64,000 nucleotides of DNA from Deltaproteobacteria bacterium (GTDB lineage: Bacteria; Desulfobacterota; Desulfuromonadia; Geobacterales; Pseudopelobacteraceae). This document shows positions 4,455-60,154 of the stretch, in pieces; within the stretch, counting starts at the first letter, position 1; each line of letters begins with the position of its first letter. The notes under the pieces are model-generated. The model saw nothing but the letters and a program-made list of their open reading frames with translations, did not search any database and was not told where the DNA came from. The DNA lies in assembly GCA_021781535.1 (NCBI GenBank), contig JAJXWO010000002.1:186001-250000 (forward strand), given 5' to 3'. A program made the position numbers and the translations under genes.

Positions 4455-6233
4455 ATGGTCGCAACAAATAACTGGGTAAAAGACGGACTGGACGCATATC
4501 TCTCCCTTACCAAGGAACATCGAGAAGAGCAGAAAACGGAAGATGATGCGTTATATAAACAGAAGACAATGCAGCTGTTGCAGGATCAAAATCAAAGGGC
4601 CGAGGCGGCCGCAGGTCTCACCAGTCAAACCACACAGCTTGCCATTGACAAAGGTAAGCGGGACGCGGCAGATGAAAACAAGTGGGACGAGTGGGACGGT
4701 AAATTGTTTGATACTGCAGTGGCTAAAGAGATAGTCAATCCCTTCTCTCCCACAGTCGAAACGATTAAAGATCCCGCAAAAGTCGAAATGAGCAAGTATG
4801 TCTATGGCAACAACCTTAAGACGGTTGCTTTTGCCAGGGACGCCGTGGCCAAAAATGGCAACATGAGAATCCCTGTTGATAGGCTGCCGGAAATGGCACC
4901 GCAGTTTGTCATGGACACGGTAAAACATGTCTTTGGCCCTGCTGCTGCAAAACGTGCCGGTCAAGAGGCGGTTGACCCCGTAACGCAGCAGGTAGGTATT
5001 ATCACCGGGAACATGGGTCATGTAAACCTCATGCGTGGTGACGATGGTGACGCATATCTGAGCGCAGATATGGAGATTAAGAACGAAGATGGCTCTATCC
5101 GTTACGCCCCTTACACGAATCGGACTGATGCTGTAGACCAGCCGGTTAAAATGGTCCCGCTCAAAGCCTTAGAACATGAAGCCACCGCGACCATTCAGGG
5201 TATTGACGACGCGTTGCAGACCGGAGCTGATCCAGCAGTAACAATCACAAGCCGGAAGCTGGCCGGATTAAAAGCGGCACCCAGGGAAGTGAAAAAAGAA
5301 ATGTACAAAGCAATGCTGAAAGAAGATGAAAATATGAGGACCAGGGAGTCTGACGTTCTCACAACCAAGAAGGTCGGAAAGGTGCTTGAATCGATGCAGC
5401 CACAGATAGACGCTTTGCCTTGGAAAGATGATCCCCACTCGGCAGTAGTAAGCCTCTATACCACGCTATCGCAAAGCGGCATGACCACAGCCGAAGTCGA
5501 GAAGGCGGTGACGAGAATCACAGCAGCCAAGGTTCCAACAGCCAAGAATCTGCAGATTGAGGAAATAGGAACAGGTGGAGATATGGTGCAAAAAGCGATT
5601 GTCGGGACAGATGGCAAAACGACACCAATCGGCAAACCATATCGAAAGCATGCACCTCCATCTACCGGCGGAAGTGACAAGGAAATACTTCTCGTTAAAA
5701 GGGATGTGGCCACAAGGCTACGCGAAGCGCAACGGGGATACCAGGCAGCAGTAAAGAAAGGCAACCCCGACGCGGTAGCAGAGGCCGTGGATTATATCGA
5801 ACAGCTGAACAGCGACGCTAAAACCTATGGGGTGCCGCCTCTTCCGGTCCCGACTCGCCCTATGACCAGCGACGAAGAAACGGCATTGTATGAACAGGCA
5901 ACCAAGGCCGCCCGAGAAAAACAGGGTAGAGTTGCAAGAGCTATAGGAATGGACCCAAGCAAAGATGATGTAGAAGCGGAGTTTCAGAGATTGAAGATGC
6001 AGCCAAAACCGAGGGCAGCCAGGCCGGTCGGCGCCGATACATCACCATCCGATACCCTGCACACTAAACCCAAACAGCAGCAGCCAGCGCCACAAAAGCA
6101 AACTGCCCCCCAGAACCAAGGCACATTGAACGGTGCCCCTCCTGCAGCACAGCACGCCGGTAGAATCATCAGAGACACTGCAACTGGCAAACGCTATCAG
6201 TCAAACGGTGCAAGCTGGCTGGAGGTGCAATAA
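4455..6233 (+). CDS. Phage structural/ejection-type protein, 592 residues
   Basis: 592 residues, ATG with AAGGAGAT at 4440-4447. The N-terminal 70 residues are a polar helical segment rich in Lys, Glu and Gln; the middle is mixed and highly charged; the tail is Pro/Gln-rich (about 505-560) and ends in a compact module containing GRIIRDTATGKRYQSNG. No signal peptide or transmembrane helix. Lying between the Ala-rich small protein and the 1752-residue protein, with its stop overlapping the next ATG by one base, it fits a virion-internal or ejection protein. Family not recognised with confidence. Confidence 0.55.
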   Translation: MVATNNWVKDGLDAYLSLTKEHREEQKTEDDALYKQKTMQLLQDQNQRAEAAAGLTSQTTQLAIDKGKRDAADENKWDEWDGKLFDTAVAKEIVNPFSPTVETIKDPAKVEMSKYVYGNNLKTVAFARDAVAKNGNMRIPVDRLPEMAPQFVMDTVKHVFGPAAAKRAGQEAVDPVTQQVGIITGNMGHVNLMRGDDGDAYLSADMEIKNEDGSIRYAPYTNRTDAVDQPVKMVPLKALEHEATATIQGIDDALQTGADPAVTITSRKLAGLKAAPREVKKEMYKAMLKEDENMRTRESDVLTTKKVGKVLESMQPQIDALPWKDDPHSAVVSLYTTLSQSGMTTAEVEKAVTRITAAKVPTAKNLQIEEIGTGGDMVQKAIVGTDGKTTPIGKPYRKHAPPSTGGSDKEILLVKRDVATRLREAQRGYQAAVKKGNPDAVAEAVDYIEQLNSDAKTYGVPPLPVPTRPMTSDEETALYEQATKAAREKQGRVARAIGMDPSKDDVEAEFQRLKMQPKPRAARPVGADTSPSDTLHTKPKQQQPAPQKQTAPQNQGTLNGAPPAAQHAGRIIRDTATGKRYQSNGASWLEVQ

Positions 6234-9200
6234 TGGCCTTTGTATTCGAAGACGTGCAGCCGCAGGCAACCAGCCCGCAATTTGTGTTTGATGATGCCGC
6301 GCCGGATCCAGCAACCCCACCAGCAAAGCCGAAGGGAATTCTTGAAAGCGCCATTGATACATTTGCCGGAGCAGGTGCCCGCGTAGCCCAGGGCGTCAAT
6401 CAGTCGCTCGGGGCCATCGATGCTGCTTTCGGATTGGATCAGGGGGCGCAGACTTACAAAGAGGGTGCCGAGTACTGGCAACATAAAGCCGAAGATGCTG
6501 GTTCGGATGGACTGCCGGCCGCCATTTATACCGGAGTTGGGGCAGCCCCCGCAGGAGTGGCAGAGTTCATGGCCGGCCCGGTATATGCCGGAGCCAAGGG
6601 CGCGGCGGAGGGGTACCAAGAGGGTGGCGTCCCTGGAGCGCTTGAAAAGGCGGCAATCGAAGTAACCAAGCGTGTCGGCATTGGTAAGGTGTTTCACGGT
6701 ATCGAAAACACAGCTATATCCGGATTACCCAAAGCCGCAGTAATGGGCGGGACAATGGGAGTCCAGACAGCAGCAGAACAGGCAATGACCGATAAAGGCA
6801 TTCAGCCTCAAGACGTGGCCGCCAGTGCCATAACTGGCACGCTGTTGTCTGTGAGTGGCGGCGGCCGGTCGGAAGTGATCAGAAAGAACCTTCTCAAAGA
6901 GGGTGTTCAGCCTGAAATTGCTGCAGACCTTGCCGGCAGGTTTCAGTTTGACGACCAGGCATCAGCCTCCCCCGCCTCAATTGCCATAACCGACCCCCAG
7001 GGCCGCCCCCTGGATGTGCCGATCGACACCCGCCCACCGGAGAGCATTGGACCGCTTGTGTCTGAAACAGGCAACGGCTCTTTACGTCTTGCGACGGAGC
7101 AGTCGTCAGGACTTGACCCGGAGCGCCAGACATTTATTAAAGACCAGGTAGGAAGTCTCGGCAGCATCGAGGCGGTCAACCGAATGTTCCCGGGCGCAAC
7201 CCCGGCAGACGTTTACGCTCGCCAGGTTGCCGGGGAGTTGTACGGATCTCCTGAACGCGGCTTTACAATGGGGCAGCCTTCACCGCTGCAGGTACGCACA
7301 GACATGCCTGCCACTGAGGGAGAAGTAATCCCGCCAGAACAGCCGACCGTAAAGCCAGCCCCTGAACCACAGACCATTGACGGTGAAATAGTCCCGGCAG
7401 GTTTACTGCCAGCGCCAGAACGTGGCTTTGTCATGAAACCGTACGAGGGTGAAGTGATCTCGCCAGAACCGGCGAAAACAGTTCCTGAACAGCAAGTAGT
7501 TGACGGGCAAATAATCCCGGCCGGTTTGATCGAAGATAGAACGCTCAAAAATGCCCCAGGAAGCCCGAACGGGTTTGACACCTTATCAGCACTTGCACAA
7601 AATAGAGAAGTCAAGCCGGATAACTCCCCATTTTCGTCTGGTGACACATCCAAGCTTGAATCACATGCCGCAAGTATCGAAAACTTTATCAAGCAGATTG
7701 GAGACACGACCGACCCGGCATTATTGGGAACGATCCAGAAAGCGAAAGAGAGTCTGGCAACAATCCGCGAAACAATCCAGAGCAACAAGGCCTCCGCACC
7801 GTCTCCGCTCGAAACAATTTACCATCCTGATAAGCGTATCGAGTTGAGGTTTCCGGAAGCGCCGAATCAGAAGACAATCACCCGCCTAAGGAACAACCGC
7901 TTTGAAGACCAGGGCGGGAATGTCTGGATTGCCAAGGGCAGCGGTAAGGCGCGTCGTGAATTTGTCGAAAAGTTGCAGGGTGAAGCGTCAGAGCAATACA
8001 TGCGCCCGAAGGGAACAGCGCCGGTGCCCATTAAGGAGGAAATACCAGTAAACAACCCTGTTGGGTCAGTCATTCCAGATTCCAGTGAAACAAACCCGAT
8101 TGACACCGGCACCGTCGAGCAGTTCACAGCCACGGCCAAGAAAAGAGGGGGAAAAGATGTATTTGACGTGAAGTTGAACCCCTCACAACGTCGAACCCTC
8201 GAAGCGGTCCGCCAGGAGATCAGCGACGGAGAAGCCGGGAAGCGTGTCGGCATTTACAATACGAACGAACCAGGCAGCACACAGGTTTCCTGGGGAAGTT
8301 CCTTCCCTGAATATTTCCGCGACAAGGGCTACACCAAAACCAAAGCACTGGCAGCAATCGACAATATTCTGAATGGTGACGGCGTGACCGCTCTGCAGAA
8401 AATCATGGTTGAAGATATGCACCAGGAGCGACGCCGGCAGGATACAAACCAGATACTCACTGAACGCGCCAAGCCTTCTGAGGTATCAGCCCTCCACCTG
8501 GACGAAGGCGATACACTCAAGCGCAATGGTGAGAAGTTCGAAGTAACGGACGTCGGCCCCGATGGTGTCACTCTCAAAGACGGTGTTGTTCTCGATCTGA
8601 ATCATGAAGAGGCAATCAATTACGACCGGGGAACGCTTAAGGATGCCGACGGGAAGCATAAAAAGGTTAATCCCGAATCTGGAAACAACGCCGAAAACAG
8701 TGGTGTTGAAACGTTTCCTCATAACGGCGGCGTGATCCTGGATAACCTGGGATTACAGCAGATCTATGAACGGATTTCGAATGCTCGCTTAATCCGTGAC
8801 GTCATGGACGATGTGAAGTCAGTAGGGCGGCACGTCATAGCCAAGGGCGCCACAACCTGGAAAGAGTTTTTCCAGGGTATGAAAGACACCCTCGGGGACA
8901 AGTTCGCCAAAGTCCGTCCGGTAATGGAAAGAGTCTGGAAGATCCTCGACAACGAACGCGGCAGCATCGACATCGAGGCCCCCCGACTTCGGGCAGCCTG
9001 GGACGGAATCCTTCGCGCAGTCAATCCGATGGAGCGGGGAGACCTGGCAGAGAAGACCGGAGAACTGTTGCGGGAGCGTATGGGCGTCAGGGAGATGAAC
9101 CGCGTCCGCTTCTCGGGTGAACTCGACGCCGCAGTCAAGAAGTACGAAGAGCAGACCGGGCTTGTAGCAAGGGGCCTTGATGCAATCCAGAACTCAGGGC

Positions 9201-12950: not shown

Positions 12951-13026
12951 TGGTGGGCGAAACAGGGATCGAACCTGTGACATCCAGCTTGTAAGGCTGG
13001 CGCTCTCCCAGCTGAGCTATTCGCCC
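12951..13026 (-). tRNA. tRNA-Val (anticodon TAC)
   Basis: 76 bases including an encoded CCA. On the - strand it starts GGGCGAATAGCTCAGC, has anticodon loop CTTACAA between CCAGC/GCTGG stems, and T-loop GGTTCGATCC. Anticodon bases are 12991-12993. It is co-oriented with, and 9 bases downstream of, tRNA-Asp. Its 3' end faces the phage region, a classic integration geometry. Confidence 0.97.
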
Positions 13027-13035
13027 TTATTGTTA

Positions 13036-13112
13036 TGGCGGGGTTGACGGGGCTCGAACCCGCGACTTCCAGCGTGACAGGCTGGCACTCTAACCAACTG
13101 AGCTACAACCCC
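13036..13112 (-). tRNA. tRNA-Asp (anticodon GTC)
   Basis: 77 bases with encoded CCA. On the - strand it starts GGGGTTGTAGCTCAG, with anticodon loop CTGTCAC between CCAGC/GCTGG and T-loop GGTTCGAGCC. Anticodon bases are 13076-13078. It lies between the HU gene and tRNA-Val and is probably cotranscribed with both. Confidence 0.97.
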
Positions 13113-16867: not shown

Positions 16868-16952
16868 TGGTGCGAGAGAGGAGACTTGAACTCCTATACC
16901 GTGAGGTGCCAGATCCTAAGTCTGGTGCGTCTGCCAATTCCGCCACTCTCGC
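16868..16952 (-). tRNA. tRNA-Leu (anticodon TAG)
   Basis: 85 bases with encoded CCA and the long variable arm typical of tRNA-Leu. On the - strand it starts GCGAGAGTGGCGGAATTGG; the anticodon loop is CTTAGGA between CCAGA/TCTGG. Anticodon bases are 16916-16918. It is upstream of and co-oriented with tig. Confidence 0.97.
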
Positions 16953-29656: not shown

Positions 29657-31663
29657 CTATTCCGCCAGCATCCGCGCAAAGAAATCCGCCGCCAGATCGG
29701 CGGGTTCTGCCGCATTGACGCCAGCCCCTTCCATAGCTCCATTCAGCAGATGCTCCGGGATCTCGGCCAGAAAGCGGCTTGGTTTTTGCCCTTCCACCGC
29801 GCCGTATTTGCGCCGGGTCATGCAGCGCGAGATCGTGAGGTATTTCCGGGCCCGCGTAATGCCGACATAGCAGAGACGGCGTTCTTCGGCCACGGTGGGG
29901 TCCTCTTCGATGGAGCGTTTGTGCGGCAGCAGGTTTTCCTCCATGCCGACCAGCCAGACATGGCTGAATTCCAGCCCTTTGCTGGAGTGCAGCGACATCA
30001 GGGTGACGGCATTGGTGCCATGCTCCTTGCCATCTTCGGCCGGCTTGTCTTCATCCATGAGCGAAATCCGTTCAAGGAATGCCGAAAGCGTCGCCTTGGG
30101 GTACTGTGCCTCGTAGGCCGCCAGCGAGTTGACCACCTGCTCGATGTTCTCAATCCGTTTGCGGGACTGCTTGGCGTCGTTGAGGGTCCGATACAGCTCG
30201 TCCTCGATCCGCAGTCGGTTGAAGAGGGTGTTGACCTGCGCCCCCATATTGATAGAGGTGAAACCGGCCATGACCTCTTTCATCATGGCGTGAAATCCGA
30301 GCACCGTTTTTCTGCATGACGGCGAAATCTCTTCAATTTCGCCCGCCCGCCCCAGTGTTTCAAACAGCGGCACGTCATTGTTCATCGACCACTGGTTCAG
30401 TTTTATCAGCGTCGTGTCGCCGATTCCTCGCCGGGGAAAGTTGATGATGCGCAGCAATGATGCTTCGTCGCTCGGGTTGTCGATCACTTTCAGATAGGCG
30501 ATGGCATCCTTGACCTCTTTGCGCTCGTAGAACTGCTGCCCGCCGATGACCACGTAAGGGATGCGCTCCAGGCGCAACTTTTCCTCAAAGGCCCGGCTCT
30601 GGGCGTTGGAGCGATACAGGATGGCCAGATCGGACCAACGCAACTTTTCGCGATACTGCTCCAGCATGATCTGTTCCACCACCAGTGCCGCTTCCTCCTC
30701 CTCACTGCCCGCCACGATCAGATCGATCTCGCGCCCTTTGCCGTCGGACGTCCAGAGCGCCTTGTCCGTCCGCACCGGATTGTTCTTGATGACACAGTTG
30801 GCGGCATCCAGAATTGTACCGGTGGAGCGGTAGTTCTGTTCCAGTTTGATCGTCACGCAACCGGGATGATCCTGGGCGAAGTTGAGAATATTCTGCACCT
30901 CGGCACCGCGCCAGCCGTAGATGGACTGATCGTCATCACCGACGACACAGATATTGCCATGTTTTTGGGCCAAGAGTGAAATAAGCAGATATTGCGAGGC
31001 GTTGGTATCCTGGTATTCGTCCACCATGATGTAGCGGAAGCGCTCCTGCCAGTGGCCGAGGATGGCCGGGGTGGTTTGTAGCAGGCGTACGGAGAGCATG
31101 ATGATATCATCGAAGTCGATGGCGTTAAACCCCTTCAGCAACTCCTGATAGCGGGGGTACACTGCGGCGGTTGCGATCTCCAGCGGATCGTTTCTGTCCG
31201 GGGTGAACTCCTTCGGTCCGATCAGACGGTTTTTAAGTCCCGATATCTTCCAGAGAATCCGGTCCGGGTCGATTTTTTTTGGATCAATGTCCCGTTCCCG
31301 CACGGCCTGACGTATGACACCGGCCTGGTCGGAAGTCGAATAGATCGAAAAGTTGGGCTTGAAGCCGAGCGCCCGGATGTCACGCCGGAGGATGCGGACT
31401 CCCAGTGAATGAAAGGTCGAGATGACGATCCCTTTGGCCAGGCTGCCTGCCATGCCGAGTACGCGTGCGTTCATCTCGCGGGCGGCCTTGTTGGTAAAGG
31501 TCACTGCGAGGATATTCTCGGCCGGAACGCGCAGATCTTTCAAAAAATGGACGATACGGGTGGTAATTACCTGGGTTTTTCCGGAACCGGCCCCGGCCAG
31601 GATCAGTAGAGCGCCGTCGACAGTGTTGACGGCGCGTTGTTGTGGTGGATTGAGTTTTTTCAT
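29657..31663 (-). CDS. UvrD/Rep-type ATP-dependent DNA helicase (superfamily 1)
   Basis: 668 residues from the ATG at 31663 (MKKLNPPQQRAVNTVDG), which matches the normal start of Rep/UvrD; an in-frame ATG at 31699 would add 12 odd residues. Motifs: Q-motif LNPPQQRAV, Walker A GAGSGKT (24-30), TFTNKAAREM, VDEYQDTNASQY, GDDDQSIYGWRGA, and LMSLHSSKGLEFSHVWLVGM. A 3'-5' helicase for repair or fork restart. Length and start favour Rep, but UvrD/PcrA is not excluded. No clear Shine-Dalgarno is visible before either start. The C-terminus reaches the region upstream of the chemoreceptor. Confidence 0.92.
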   Translation of the reverse strand: MKKLNPPQQRAVNTVDGALLILAGAGSGKTQVITTRIVHFLKDLRVPAENILAVTFTNKAAREMNARVLGMAGSLAKGIVISTFHSLGVRILRRDIRALGFKPNFSIYSTSDQAGVIRQAVRERDIDPKKIDPDRILWKISGLKNRLIGPKEFTPDRNDPLEIATAAVYPRYQELLKGFNAIDFDDIIMLSVRLLQTTPAILGHWQERFRYIMVDEYQDTNASQYLLISLLAQKHGNICVVGDDDQSIYGWRGAEVQNILNFAQDHPGCVTIKLEQNYRSTGTILDAANCVIKNNPVRTDKALWTSDGKGREIDLIVAGSEEEEAALVVEQIMLEQYREKLRWSDLAILYRSNAQSRAFEEKLRLERIPYVVIGGQQFYERKEVKDAIAYLKVIDNPSDEASLLRIINFPRRGIGDTTLIKLNQWSMNNDVPLFETLGRAGEIEEISPSCRKTVLGFHAMMKEVMAGFTSINMGAQVNTLFNRLRIEDELYRTLNDAKQSRKRIENIEQVVNSLAAYEAQYPKATLSAFLERISLMDEDKPAEDGKEHGTNAVTLMSLHSSKGLEFSHVWLVGMEENLLPHKRSIEEDPTVAEERRLCYVGITRARKYLTISRCMTRRKYGAVEGQKPSRFLAEIPEHLLNGAMEGAGVNAAEPADLAADFFARMLAE

Positions 31664-31956
31664 GGAAATAGATGTACCACGGAGTGCGGGCTGAGGCAAT
31701 TTTGTTTAAATTTTCAATTTTTAATAAATGTTGACGCTGCCGCGAAGCGGGGGGTAACTGTTGGCAGAGATCTCTGTACAATTTCGTAATCGGTGTCGCG
31801 TCAGAAATTAGTCTCAGATCCTGTCACTGCTGTTTAAAAAAATGACCTTCTAACCACGTGGCAACAGACGGGCACGCCGCTTGGATAAAAAAGTGTGGCA
31901 ATCTTTGTTTGATATTGATATATATAACTTTATATATACTTTACAGGAGTGGTGCT

Positions 31957-32244: not shown

Positions 32245-32268
32245 TGGAGGCATGAACAAAGGAGGATA

Positions 32269-32314
32269 AAAATTATTACGGGGAAGCCGACGGCGGTTTC
32301 CCCGTAATAATTTT
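32269..32314. terminator. Bidirectional terminator between the selenoprotein and the AAA/Lon gene
   Basis: AAAATTATTACGGGGA pairs with TCCCCGTAATAATTTT around a GC-rich centre; both ends give U-rich tails. It serves the two convergent genes. Confidence 0.85.
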
Positions 32315-32414: not shown

Positions 32415-35400
32415 TCAAACAGGTTCTTTAATAATGGCGTAAATTTGATCCATGCTGTCGTAGCTTGAGCCCTGCTTGTTTACATGGTTCTGGATCGCCT
32501 GCAACCGTTGGCGGATATTTGCTTCGGCCATTCTGCGCAATCCGGCGGCCTGGGTGATCATATCCTCTGTGGTTGCTGGCGGGATCGCCTGCGAGTCGGG
32601 AGTCAGTTCGATGGTGATCCGGCGTTTAAAGAAATCATGCAGAAGCTGCAGGTGGTTTGCGCCAAAATAAAAGACCTCCGGAACCAGAGAGGAAAAGCTG
32701 GTGACGGGCAGAACGTCCTTGCCCTGCAACCGGTAAGAGTCGAGCGTTTCCCGTTCCAGGTCAAGGTGATTCTGCACCGGCATATACATCCTCTGAAGAT
32801 ACTGCAGAACTTTCTCGGTTTTTTTTCGGTGACCGCCGATGATTACCGATGCGCCGATCTCCCCTTTGCGTGCTCCCTTGATCCAGGGAGCACCGGTAAT
32901 ACCGAAATCATTCAGGACCGGTAGATTGACCAGTACGGAGAGGGTGTTGATGGCCAGGGCAAAACCGGCTGAGGGGCCGCCGACACTATAGGAGGCGGAG
33001 AGCAGCTGGTGGTGAAGCGAATAGCCGTTGAGGAACTCGCCCAGCAGGCGTGACATGTTGACCTGCGGCAGCAGCGACTGCAAGTAGCTTTCAACCAGGG
33101 TTAACGCTTCGCGGGAACTCTGGTGCGTCATCTGTACGGCCATATCCAGTTCTGCGCCGGAGGCTGAATTGGTCGAGACGGCGCCGGTAACAACAATTTT
33201 TTCCGGGTATATCCGGTAGACCAGCGTTGAGGCGATCGGCAGCAGGACACCGCTGGTGTCGTTGGCACCGACCCCGACGACGAAACCAACCTGCGGCTCT
33301 TTGGAAAGCTCCGTTTCCAGGAATTCATCGAGCTGTTGCTTCCCCTTGCGTTGCGGACTGCCCGCCAGTTGCTGGCGGGCGTTCTGCAGGTGCCAGCGGG
33401 TGATCGGAAAGTCCTTGTCGGCTTTAATCCCGGAAAAAAGGGTGAAGATTTCATCCAGCCGGTCGAGCATACCCTCTTCCCCCTGGCGGGCTCGCTGGGT
33501 CAGGGCGCTGTTCGGCACCATCCCTTCCAGCAGGCCGAGCAGAATCTTGTAGTTGTAACGGACTACGTGGATTTTTTCTTCGCTGTCGGCAGTTCTGGTG
33601 CTGAGCAGTTTCTGGATCACCTCCATCTCGGTTGTCCGCAGGGAGCGGACTTTTTCCGCATAGGCGCTGTAGTCTGCCGGGGTTTCGCAAATTGAATTGC
33701 TCTGGCGGGAGACTTCCTCAATCGTCAGTTCGTCGGTCAGCGGAATTCCTGCAAGCGCCTGGACGATGATGCGAGAACGGTCTTCATCGCGCAGATGGCC
33801 GGTGACGTTGAGAACCTTCAGCCGCTTCGAGCGGATCAACGCCGGATCGATAATATCGAGCCGGTTGGTGGTCAGCACGGTAAAGACCCGGTTCAGCGGG
33901 GACTCGCCATCAATGATCGAGAGAAACTTATTGGTGATCTTGTCATAGGGGCTCCCTCCCTGCGACGAACGCCGGGGGGCGACGGCATCACCTTCGTCGA
34001 AAAAGACGATTGCCGGTGAGATCATTTTGGCGATATCGTAAATCCGTTCCAGGTTCGCTATCATCCCTTCGAGCGGACTGTTGATATCGGTCAGATCCGC
34101 TAGATTGGCCGAAATGTCCTGAACGTCATGATTGTCCCCCAGCCAGGCGCGCACCATAAAAGTTTTTCCTGAGCCGGGCGGGCCGGCCAGCACCACACCC
34201 TTTTCTTCGTTGATGTTGTAGAACAGGGCGTTGTTCGCCATTTCGGAAAATTCGTTCTTGATGGTCCCGATATAATCCTTCCAGGTGATGCTGCGGTCGA
34301 GTCCCCCGACCACCTTGTTGTAGAGCGAACCATAGGCATTGCGTGCCACGGCCTTGAGTGCGTCGCGGATCAATAGCTGGTCGTCAAGGTACTCGACGCA
34401 AAAATATCCCTTGATAGTGATGAGTGAGGCTATCAGCCGCCGGACATAGGACGGGGTGATGCGCAGGCTGCGCTGGCGAAAGATCGGGTAGAGCCTTTCT
34501 ACCGAGCTGTCGAGATCCTCTTCAGAGAGGTGTGGCGGCGGTTCGGCCAGTGGGTCTTGCGGGTGGTTGCTCCGTCGCAGTTCCAGGCAGACTACCTCGC
34601 GCAGGTTGGCCGGGTCATCCCATATGTCGTTGACGTCGATAATCAGCCCCCGCTCCATGAAACGGCGGTAAATCGCCGGATCGAACTGCTCCGGCTGGTC
34701 GGTGGTGGCGATTATGATGCAGTCGCGGCGGCCGTAGGCTATCTCGTCAAGAATGATATTCGCTGCATCAATCAGGGTTGCCTGCTGGTTCTTTATGGTG
34801 CTGCGCTCGTCGGGACGGCCGAAGGCGGAATGCGCTTCTTCCAGGTGGCGGATCGTCAGCTGCCGTGGGTCACCCATCGCCTTGCGCAGGTAGTTGCCGG
34901 GTTCTCCGGCCCAGGCGGTCTGATAGTCGTTGGGTGTAATGACGCCGTAATCGACCGGCACCCCTTCTTCATCAACTGTGGAGAGAGCCCGGCTGATCAG
35001 GTTGCGGAAAAAATAGCGGATGAGTGGCACCCGCGAAAAGAAACGCAGTCTGGCGCGTTTGCGCCGATGCTCGATGCGGGCGGCCAGCTCCGGGTCTACT
35101 TCGGTCAAGCTGCGCCAGATCGGCTGGTCGGCCATCACCTCTTCCCTTTTGGCGTCCAGATCGACCACCGGTTTGACCTCGGAGGAGAAGAAAGCCGCTT
35201 CGATCGCCTGCTTGACCGTGGCGCTCTTGCCGCTCCCGGAATTGCCGATCACCAGTACCAGCGGTGCACGCGGAACCAGCGGGTCATTGCTGTATTCCTT
35301 GAGGATAAAGGCGTGATAGAGCCTGTCGAAATAGTCATGAATCGATTTTGGCACAAAGGTGTCGATGGTTTTTTTTTCAAGCAGGAAGGTCAGGTACTGG

Positions 35401-35732
35401 TGATCCTGGGGGTCGAGTTCCCTGGCCAGGATATGATTCCAGGCCGCAGTGGCGTTCTGTGAGCCGGCGGCTTCAAAGCGCTGGTGCCAGTCGTTGAGCA
35501 GGCTCGGATTCTGCAAATGCCTGAAATCATGCTGCGTTGGCTTGAAAATCCGCTGCAGCCAGCGGCGAAGGCGCCGCAATAGCGAGTGGTTCGGCTCGTA
35601 CTGGTGAAGCCGGCGCAAGACGAAACGGCGGGTCTCATTGCTCCAGCCGTCGACCAGCTTCTCAATCTGCCTGATTCTGGTTTCCGACAGGCTGACGTAG
35701 ATCGGTGTCCTAGTTTTTCGTGTTTGTGTCAT
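32415..35732 (-). CDS. Tandem AAA-ATPase fused to a divergent Lon-type protease domain
   Basis: 1105 residues. A basic helical N-terminus (1-150) is followed by a first P-loop module (GNSGSGKS 163-170; sensor-like IIIATTDQP), a second AAA module (GPPGSGKT 517-524; Walker B IVFFDEGDAV 575-584; sensor LTTNRLDIIDPALIRSKRL), and a C-terminal Lon-protease-like domain (about 810-1040) with the nucleophile Ser921 in GPSAG. The lysine expected four residues after the conserved GG is displaced: the sequence is GGHRKK (966-971). No transmembrane helix. It starts inside the 3' end of the SPFH gene (23-base overlap), so they are made together. Predicted as an ATP-driven protease or unfoldase at the membrane; I do not know a named family with this layout. 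Confidence 0.8.
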   Translation of the reverse strand: MTQTRKTRTPIYVSLSETRIRQIEKLVDGWSNETRRFVLRRLHQYEPNHSLLRRLRRWLQRIFKPTQHDFRHLQNPSLLNDWHQRFEAAGSQNATAAWNHILARELDPQDHQYLTFLLEKKTIDTFVPKSIHDYFDRLYHAFILKEYSNDPLVPRAPLVLVIGNSGSGKSATVKQAIEAAFFSSEVKPVVDLDAKREEVMADQPIWRSLTEVDPELAARIEHRRKRARLRFFSRVPLIRYFFRNLISRALSTVDEEGVPVDYGVITPNDYQTAWAGEPGNYLRKAMGDPRQLTIRHLEEAHSAFGRPDERSTIKNQQATLIDAANIILDEIAYGRRDCIIIATTDQPEQFDPAIYRRFMERGLIIDVNDIWDDPANLREVVCLELRRSNHPQDPLAEPPPHLSEEDLDSSVERLYPIFRQRSLRITPSYVRRLIASLITIKGYFCVEYLDDQLLIRDALKAVARNAYGSLYNKVVGGLDRSITWKDYIGTIKNEFSEMANNALFYNINEEKGVVLAGPPGSGKTFMVRAWLGDNHDVQDISANLADLTDINSPLEGMIANLERIYDIAKMISPAIVFFDEGDAVAPRRSSQGGSPYDKITNKFLSIIDGESPLNRVFTVLTTNRLDIIDPALIRSKRLKVLNVTGHLRDEDRSRIIVQALAGIPLTDELTIEEVSRQSNSICETPADYSAYAEKVRSLRTTEMEVIQKLLSTRTADSEEKIHVVRYNYKILLGLLEGMVPNSALTQRARQGEEGMLDRLDEIFTLFSGIKADKDFPITRWHLQNARQQLAGSPQRKGKQQLDEFLETELSKEPQVGFVVGVGANDTSGVLLPIASTLVYRIYPEKIVVTGAVSTNSASGAELDMAVQMTHQSSREALTLVESYLQSLLPQVNMSRLLGEFLNGYSLHHQLLSASYSVGGPSAGFALAINTLSVLVNLPVLNDFGITGAPWIKGARKGEIGASVIIGGHRKKTEKVLQYLQRMYMPVQNHLDLERETLDSYRLQGKDVLPVTSFSSLVPEVFYFGANHLQLLHDFFKRRITIELTPDSQAIPPATTEDMITQAAGLRRMAEANIRQRLQAIQNHVNKQGSSYDSMDQIYAIIKEPV

Positions 35733-36672
35733 CGCGTTTGACCGGAACCTGAGGATGATTGACGACGGGAGAGGGAAGGGTCACCGGAACAGTTGAGGAG
35801 GTGTTGTTCAGGACAAAGGTATTCTGACCCTGTTGATTTTTCTGATACGCCGCCGCCCACTTCTGTTGATTGAGAAAATCCAGCAGGTACGGTTCGTTGT
35901 TGCTGCTTATGCCAAGAGAATGGCGCATCTGCCGGATTGATTCAGTGTAGGCGGCATAGAGTTTCCTCGTCTGGCTTGCCTCCTGATCGGCCGCGTAATT
36001 ATCCGCTTCGGCGAGCAACTCGCGACGTTTTTTCTCTTCACTTGCTTCGGCCAGTTTTTCGCCGTAGCGGGTATCCCGGAGGACAAAAGAGATGATTTCG
36101 ATACCGTACTTTTGCCCGAGAGTCAGTCCGCCATCATTGATCGGCCGGTCCTTGAGGGTCCGGAAAATCTGCTCCTTGATGCGTACCCGGTCGGAGATCA
36201 GTGCGTTGATTGATTCGCTCTGCATCACGTCCTTGACGATCCCGTCGAATTCTGTCTGCAACAGCGTTTGAGGTGAACGATTTTCGATTCCCCAGCGGTT
36301 CAGATCGTGAATTCTGAAGGTGAGCATGGCGCTGGTCCAGAGGGCGACATTTCCCTTGGACATTATCCGCTGCGGTTCGCTGCTGTTCCCGAGGTGCAGT
36401 TCCTGGTTCATCAGCGGGACTTCAAGTTCCAGGCGGGTAAAGATCGGCAGGCGCATATGCCAGCCAACCTCGGTGACGGCAATCCGTTCCCCGGACAGGG
36501 TTTCCAGGATGACAGCATAGTTTTTGCGGATTTTATAGATAGTTTTGGTGGCATAAATCATCGCCATGCCACCGTAGAGAAGGACAACGGCAACCAGCGC
36601 CAGGACGGCTTTTTTGAGGAGATTTCTTAGCCGGGCGCGGTGGAGCAGACTGGATTGCAATACCTGATTCAC
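35710..36672 (-). CDS. SPFH/Band-7 domain membrane protein (HflK/HflC/prohibitin-like)
   Basis: 320 residues. One transmembrane helix (about 24-46, AVLALVAVVLLYGGMAMIY), then an SPFH domain (about 50-230) with MRLPIFTRLELEVPLMNQEL and a helical Glu/Ala-rich segment (EKLAEASEEKKRRELLAEAD), the part that forms rings in HflK/C. The tail (about 290-320) is Pro-rich and disordered. HflK/C surround FtsH and control its proteolysis; here the next gene is a AAA-Lon protease overlapping by 23 bases, which suggests the same kind of pairing with another protease. GGAGGCAC lies before the ATG. Confidence 0.85.
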   Translation of the reverse strand: MNQVLQSSLLHRARLRNLLKKAVLALVAVVLLYGGMAMIYATKTIYKIRKNYAVILETLSGERIAVTEVGWHMRLPIFTRLELEVPLMNQELHLGNSSEPQRIMSKGNVALWTSAMLTFRIHDLNRWGIENRSPQTLLQTEFDGIVKDVMQSESINALISDRVRIKEQIFRTLKDRPINDGGLTLGQKYGIEIISFVLRDTRYGEKLAEASEEKKRRELLAEADNYAADQEASQTRKLYAAYTESIRQMRHSLGISSNNEPYLLDFLNQQKWAAAYQKNQQGQNTFVLNNTSSTVPVTLPSPVVNHPQVPVKRDDTNTKN

Positions 36673-59939: not shown

Positions 59940-60015
59940 TCCCCTTTAGCTCAGTTGGTAGAGCAGGTGACTGTTAATCACCTTGTCCGTGGTTCGAGTC
60001 CGCGAAGGGGAGCCA
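59940..60015 (+). tRNA. tRNA-Asn (anticodon GTT)
   Basis: 76 bases with encoded CCA. TCCCCTT pairs with AAGGGGA; anticodon loop CTGTTAA between GGTGA/TCACC; T-loop GGTTCGAGTC. Anticodon bases are 59973-59975. Confidence 0.97.
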
Positions 60016-60022
60016 ATCAAAA

Positions 60023-60068
60023 ACGAGTCTGATTACCTAATTAAAGCTGGTAGTCAGACTTGTTTTTT
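60023..60068 (+). terminator. Terminator between tRNA-Asn and tRNA-Gly
   Basis: ACGAGTCTGATTACC and GGTAGTCAGACTTGT make a 15-bp stem with two wobble pairs, followed by TTTTTT. It implies tRNA-Gly has its own promoter or depends on readthrough. Confidence 0.8.
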
Positions 60069-60079
60069 ATCAGTTAAAT

Positions 60080-60154
<75 letters not shown>

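Follow-up and report, generated by a model that had tools for sequence, protein, structure and literature searches.

A conserved gene pair encoding an SPFH membrane protein and a tandem AAA+/Lon-type protease in bacteria and archaea

A 64,000 nt stretch of the genome of a Deltaproteobacteria bacterium of the Geobacterales (GenBank assembly GCA_021781535.1, contig JAJXWO010000002.1, positions 186,001 to 250,000; hereafter the window) contains two overlapping genes, one encoding an SPFH membrane protein and the other a protease in which two classic AAA modules precede a Lon-type domain. The pairing of SPFH and AAA-Lon genes is real: they are found side by side in bacteria and archaea, and co-occur in the same few genomes of the source phylum. 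With moderate confidence, we propose that the two genes specify an AAA+ protease system linked to the membrane, where an SPFH oligomer would hold a p97-like unfoldase fused to a Lon protease.

Both open reading frames (ORFs) are on the minus strand. That of the SPFH protein (35710-36672, 320 aa) begins with GTG and that of the AAA-Lon protein (32415-35732, 1105 aa) with ATG; they share the 23 bases from 35710 to 35732, so the overlap and partner length given in the original prediction, made from the sequence of this region alone, were correct. As both proteins are kept in many genomes, neither represents a one-off reading frame. The features of the locus, with module boundaries set by eye, are as follows.

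35710..36672, minus strand: SPFH (Band 7) protein, 320 aa, PF01145 at 1e-15, transmembrane helix at residues 22-40, N-tail conserved and positively charged, C-tail variable
32415..35732, minus strand: tandem AAA+/Lon protease, 1105 aa, from Pfam, profile and model evidence
34323..35273, minus strand: first AAA+ module, residues ~154-470
33633..34283, minus strand: second AAA+ module, residues ~484-700, nearest p97/Cdc48 by sequence
32754..33323, minus strand: Lon (S16) protease domain, residues 804-993, from Pfam match, profile and model
32970..32972, minus strand: codon of the predicted catalytic Ser921 (GGPSAG), present in 34/34 sequences
32820..32822, minus strand: codon of the predicted catalytic Lys971 (GGHRKK), 50 residues after Ser921, present in 34/34 sequences
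32268..32314, minus strand: strong stem-loop, U-rich on its 3' side, ~100 bases past the AAA-Lon gene (z -5.1; none of 200 shuffles as stable)

The larger protein matches Pfam AAA (PF00004, 3.5e-27) in two stretches, as expected of a tandem classic AAA protein, and the two P-loop modules originally described are borne out by Walker A motifs at residues 163-170 (GNSGSGKS) and 517-524 (GPPGSGKT). That description did not mention that both modules belong to the classic AAA type. The second is closest to p97/Cdc48 by sequence, and contains the Walker B motif VFFDEG and the motif RSKRLK; the first has a weak Cdc48 likeness (E 9e-4, best stretch 0.5) and the predicted fold of a classic AAA module, with a pore-loop-like AWAGEPGN, a Walker-B-like RHLEEAH containing E299, and arginine-finger candidates at R356 and R357. 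In an alignment of 34 sequences (33 distinct, that of the window included), E299, R356 and R357 of the first module and K523, E580, R634 and R637 of the second are invariant, whilst K169 is present in all 33 sequences that cover its position. The pore-loop residue 274 of the first module is tryptophan or phenylalanine in 24 sequences and leucine in ten; its counterpart in the second module, identified by eye as residue 554, is mostly leucine or isoleucine and aromatic in four. Membership of the CDC48 family proper was rejected on the NCBIfam cut-off (87 against 802.65 bits), and, as regards a stacked double ring, joint alignment of both modules gave a root mean square deviation of 13-22, from models of low confidence. 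Residues 1-130, where an adaptor-binding N-domain of the p97 kind was looked for, have no listed sequence match.

The C-terminal domain is of the Lon type according to Pfam (Lon_C, residues 804-993, 23.2 bits; cut-off 21.1), its profile and a structure model of moderate confidence. Hence one of the two tests set in advance for the original prediction, that this domain should prove Lon-like, was passed by both profile and predicted fold. The GPSAG motif was likewise rightly identified and, as it begins at residue 919, so was Ser921. The predicted catalytic dyad, Ser921 (GxPSAG) and Lys971 (GGxxxK), is present in all 34 sequences, always with the lysine 50 residues after the serine, and therefore with 49 residues intervening. 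In LonA of the source genome the lysine follows the serine by 43 residues, in agreement with the exactly 42 intervening residues given for LonA and LonB in the available part of PMC9569914. No membrane segment was found in the AAA-Lon protein: its five most hydrophobic 19-residue windows, the fifth of which averages 1.37, are all within the Lon domain.

This layout had been predicted to be unlike those of LonA, LonB and LonC, and comparison with the descriptions in the available part of PMC9569914 bears this out and extends it to LonBA. All four (MEROPS S16) resemble the protein described here in having a Lon fold with a Ser-Lys dyad, C-terminal to AAA+; however, known Lons have one AAA+ module each, according to the same source, rather than two, and the spacing of 49 residues between serine and lysine is a further difference. 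LonA was rejected on the two AAA stretches, an NCBIfam lon score of 36.9 against 608 bits, and the spacing of 49 rather than 42. LonB was rejected as there is no membrane anchor inside an AAA+ module, proline instead of aspartate precedes the serine, and the spacing again differs (49 against 42). In LonC, essential ATPase residues are described as replaced (PMC9569914, available part); this assignment was rejected since, judging from the alignment, K169, E299, K523 and E580 are retained. FtsH was also rejected, the NCBIfam score being 67.9 against 600 bits and confined to the AAA part, and the C-terminal domain being Lon.

The smaller protein falls within the SPFH superfamily, with a match to PF01145 over residues 47-232 at 58.7 bits (cut-off 23.6). 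The single helix previously ascribed to it is supported by prediction, which places one transmembrane segment at residues 22-40; the best later 19-residue hydrophobic window averages 0.79. Stomatins are the best PDB matches of its profile (E 3e-4). Its only NCBIfam matches are to hflC (17.7 against 134.4 bits) and hflK (14.3 against 159.4 bits), and on these scores, far under the cut-offs, HflK and HflC were rejected as identifications. Conservation varies along the protein: across 29 loci, mean identity is 0.91 in residues 205-235 and 0.69 in the N-tail (residues 9-21), against 0.52 in the neighbouring membrane helix, and falls to 0.37 in the C-tail (residues 292-320), the lowest among the regions compared. 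Lysine and arginine residues are at least as numerous on the N-terminal side of the helix as on the C-terminal side in all 18 sequences compared (with a tie in two), a pattern that leans weakly towards an N-terminus inside the cell and an SPFH domain outside. An N-tail more conserved than the adjoining helix fits a docking role, provided that this tail is cytosolic.

In order to find relatives, a contig collection was scanned with six exact peptide patterns, all taken from one sequence, and profile searches were run on two phyla, in which the best few first-look candidates of each genome were scored; this was the range sampled, and genome counts overlap between searches. Twenty-two loci in the contig collection encode a relative of the AAA-Lon protein, and in 21 of them an SPFH gene lies directly upstream (truncated by the contig end in L035). 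The remaining locus, L052 (4818-6221), contains a remnant of the protease which lacks residues 1-409, is cut off by the contig end at residue 816 and has no accompanying SPFH gene; as the front of the protease is gone together with the SPFH gene, one deletion or misassembly would account for the loss of both. In the phylum of the source (395 genomes), a search with the protease profile (1e-40) yields 12 genomes and an independent one with the SPFH profile (1e-10) yields the identical 12, in every one of which the two genes adjoin. Within the genus of the source the protease is present in 5 of 36 other genomes, and elsewhere in the order in 0 of 21. Malonomonas rubra DSM 5091 (L042), of the order Desulfuromonadales, is a cultured strain with the pair.

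The two genes are spaced at -71 to +91 nt, with one further value of -142 that depends on the choice of start codon. Around 26 loci, some of them near-identical, no other neighbouring gene cluster occurs in more than six when ORFs antisense to the SPFH gene are set aside. This clustering took the longest ORF on either strand, and so included ORFs antisense to the SPFH gene in 10 of the 26 loci and missed the protease cluster in two; the adjacency counts rest instead on tblastn and start-codon checks. Viral, plasmid and phage origins for the pair were considered and rejected: viral contigs gave five pattern matches and no relatives, and of the 504 plasmid and 27 phage records that match, none covers 80% of the query.

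The pair also occurs in archaea, the named record being a Pacearchaeota metagenome-assembled genome (Archaea, Nanobdellati). Of 371 genomes of its phylum, three are matched by the protease profile, and two of those also by the SPFH profile (1e-5); in the third, G753, a fragment of an SPFH gene lies at the edge of a contig (Band_7 25.1 against 23.6 bits; SPFH profile 3.9e-13, in a small set). In all five archaeal genomes found to have the protease an SPFH gene is beside it, in two as a contig-edge fragment only. In one archaeal family 3/3 genomes encode the protease, each time preceded by an SPFH ORF, although in G772 this is one of the contig-edge fragments, and in G819 it adjoins the front piece of a gene split over two contigs; two other families have the protease in 1/49 and 1/138 genomes. 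Genes near the archaeal pair encode a TFIIS-type zinc ribbon, a YGR210-like GTPase and a PF04013 methyltransferase, types typical of archaea, which argue against simple contamination. Conserved adjacency, the other test set for the original prediction, is thus found in 21/22 loci of the contig collection, 12/12 genomes of the source phylum and 5/5 archaeal genomes.

In one archaeal locus (L054/G448), an ORF encoding both AAA modules (5001-7163) is followed by a separate Lon ORF (7141-8352) in a shifted frame. The protease is a single ORF in G772, G753 and G820, and the gene is in none of the other 137 genomes of the L054/G448 family; the split may be a sequencing frameshift and is not used here as evidence for a variant.

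HflK/HflC and prohibitins cage the FtsH/m-AAA protease. In HflK and HflC each SPFH subunit has one N-terminal membrane helix, and SPFH proteins more generally assemble at membranes as rings and domes; FtsH carries a single AAA module and a zinc protease domain, and is itself anchored in the membrane. The pair described here resembles these systems in linking an SPFH scaffold with one N-terminal helix to an AAA+ protease, but differs from those of FtsH in its two AAA modules, its serine-lysine Lon domain, a protease without an anchor and a single SPFH gene. With p97/Cdc48 it shares tandem classic AAA modules, the second of them nearest p97, yet the protease is fused C-terminally and the N-terminal domain differs in having no listed match. 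A third likeness is to Erlin1/2, whose SPFH assembly at the membrane is proposed to aid a p97-type extraction pathway (PMC12624060, available part): there too an SPFH assembly accompanies a p97-type motor, although that system is eukaryotic and ubiquitin-dependent, and proteolysis is left to the proteasome, a separate complex. Stomatin/NfeD operons, in which an SPFH gene is beside a protease gene and NfeD1b has a ClpP-type domain (PMC2636767, available part), share the arrangement of SPFH and protease genes but not the AAA+-Lon partner. The word Lon is absent from the text of PMC2636767, and a search of open-access PMC literature, which leaves aside subscription papers and preprints, returned no description of an SPFH-Lon pair or of a double-AAA Lon.

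Under the proposed mechanism, the SPFH protein would be inserted in the cytoplasmic membrane through its one helix and would form a ring or dome like other SPFH proteins. The AAA-Lon protein has no membrane segment, making the SPFH protein its natural anchor; as a hexamer of stacked p97-type AAA rings ending in a Lon proteolytic chamber, it would dock on the SPFH assembly in the place taken by FtsH elsewhere. Substrates brought to, or released at, the membrane would then be threaded through the AAA channel and cut at Ser921-Lys971. By analogy, the outline of action would be like that of FtsH-HflKC or p97-Erlin. The original prediction of a distinct pair of an SPFH protein and a Lon-type protease is upheld as regards conserved pairing, whilst physical contact, a cage and a task in membrane proteostasis are still matters of inference. 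More speculatively, and we consider this rather doubtful, the pair could be a prokaryotic two-gene counterpart of endoplasmic reticulum (ER)-associated degradation: an SPFH dome on the outer face, as Erlin is in the ER lumen, would gather or release membrane proteins, and a cytosolic p97-type double motor on the SPFH N-tails would extract them into its own Lon chamber, with neither ubiquitin nor a separate proteasome, in a system common to Desulfuromonadales, their bacterial relatives and Pacearchaeota-like archaea with small genomes.

The topology could also be the reverse. A cytosolic SPFH dome of the stomatin or flotillin type, as opposed to the periplasmic HflKC type, might enclose or cap the AAA-Lon hexamer and gate access to it, a real possibility to which we nevertheless give somewhat less than even chances. 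It accords with the stomatin matches of the SPFH profile and with a protease that has no membrane segment; against it, the lysine and arginine counts lean weakly towards an SPFH domain outside, and hflC and hflK are the sole NCBIfam matches, albeit far below cut-off. We consider it unlikely that the pair works like the archaeal stomatin/NfeD systems, in which the protease clips its scaffold, so that the SPFH protein or its C-tail, rather than membrane proteins in general, would be the main substrate. Pyrococcus horikoshii PH1510/PH1511 provides the precedent of a stomatin-protease operon with stomatin cleavage (PMC2636767 and PMC13086221, available parts), and the low conservation of the C-tail is as expected for a disordered, cleavable tail. 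However, a double unfoldase would be excess machinery for clipping a tail, by way of argument only, and the conservation of the N-tail and of residues 205-235 suggests a lasting structural role for the SPFH protein.

That the genes are merely co-transcribed, with a Lon-like protease working separately from a stomatin-like protein to which it is unrelated, seems quite improbable: the L052 remnant without an SPFH gene could be read in this way, yet both proteins occur in the identical 12 of 395 genomes, and adjacency persists across bacteria and archaea despite changing neighbours. We regard as highly improbable an anti-phage or stress-defence module spreading by gene transfer. Its patchy range in the genus and order of the source, and the weak similarity of the AAA modules to the defence ATPase IetA, would suit such a module, but the IetA likeness is that of classic AAA proteins, since FtsH of the same genome scores 110 bits on the NCBIfam IetA model against 36. 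Moreover, the six neighbours scanned in the window are mostly housekeeping genes, and the PADLOC matches, among the 25 of 52 listed, are to RTasHel and GajB models on a helicase, with a weak JetC match on a chemotaxis protein.

AAA+ proteases comprise a small set of well-studied machines. If the proposed system of an SPFH oligomer holding an AAA-Lon protease is correct, it would add a new architectural class, with a double p97-type motor fused to a Lon chamber and provided with an SPFH scaffold, and SPFH scaffolds would pair with proteases beyond the FtsH and ClpP types. It would also provide a simple bacterial model of the cooperation between SPFH domes and such motors in handling membrane proteins, which is still debated for prohibitins and erlins.

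Three loci have hflC within ~3 kb of the pair: L041 (1749-3703, with identical sequence in L077) and L042 (120-1052), both identified by NCBIfam, and the L052 remnant (1-1880), identified by eye. hflK is present as well in L041 (by NCBIfam) and L052 (by eye), and in L041 hflC and hflK are divergent to the pair. The source genome also encodes FtsH and LonA, both away from the pair; with hflC so close to it in other loci, the pair looks like an addition rather than a replacement. In five related loci a response regulator follows the pair (9038-9880 in L042, with similar ORFs in L038, L043, L049 and L051); its N-terminal domain, scanned in L042 only, is of the MshE type, which binds cyclic di-GMP.

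Within the window, the stem-loop at 32268..32314, absent from the sites given by a consensus scan, is perhaps the terminator of both genes; positioned ~100 bases past the second, it suggests that they may form their own operon. A search for sigma-70-like promoters gave four sites where 2.6 were expected, and was not used. Twelve other ORFs were picked at 24-46 kb, and the six scanned comprise a PcrA/Rep-type helicase, phosphofructokinase, polyphosphate kinase 1, a hydrogenase small subunit, a chemotaxis protein and one with no NCBIfam match at 1e-20. The helicase (29657-31699) falls short of the cut-off in each of 11 listed NCBIfam models (pcrA, 776.6 against 911 bits) and scores 409.9 bits to PADLOC RTasHel; it is probably an ordinary helicase. 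Five tRNA genes are found further out, at 12954-13112, 16871-16952 and 59940-60151.
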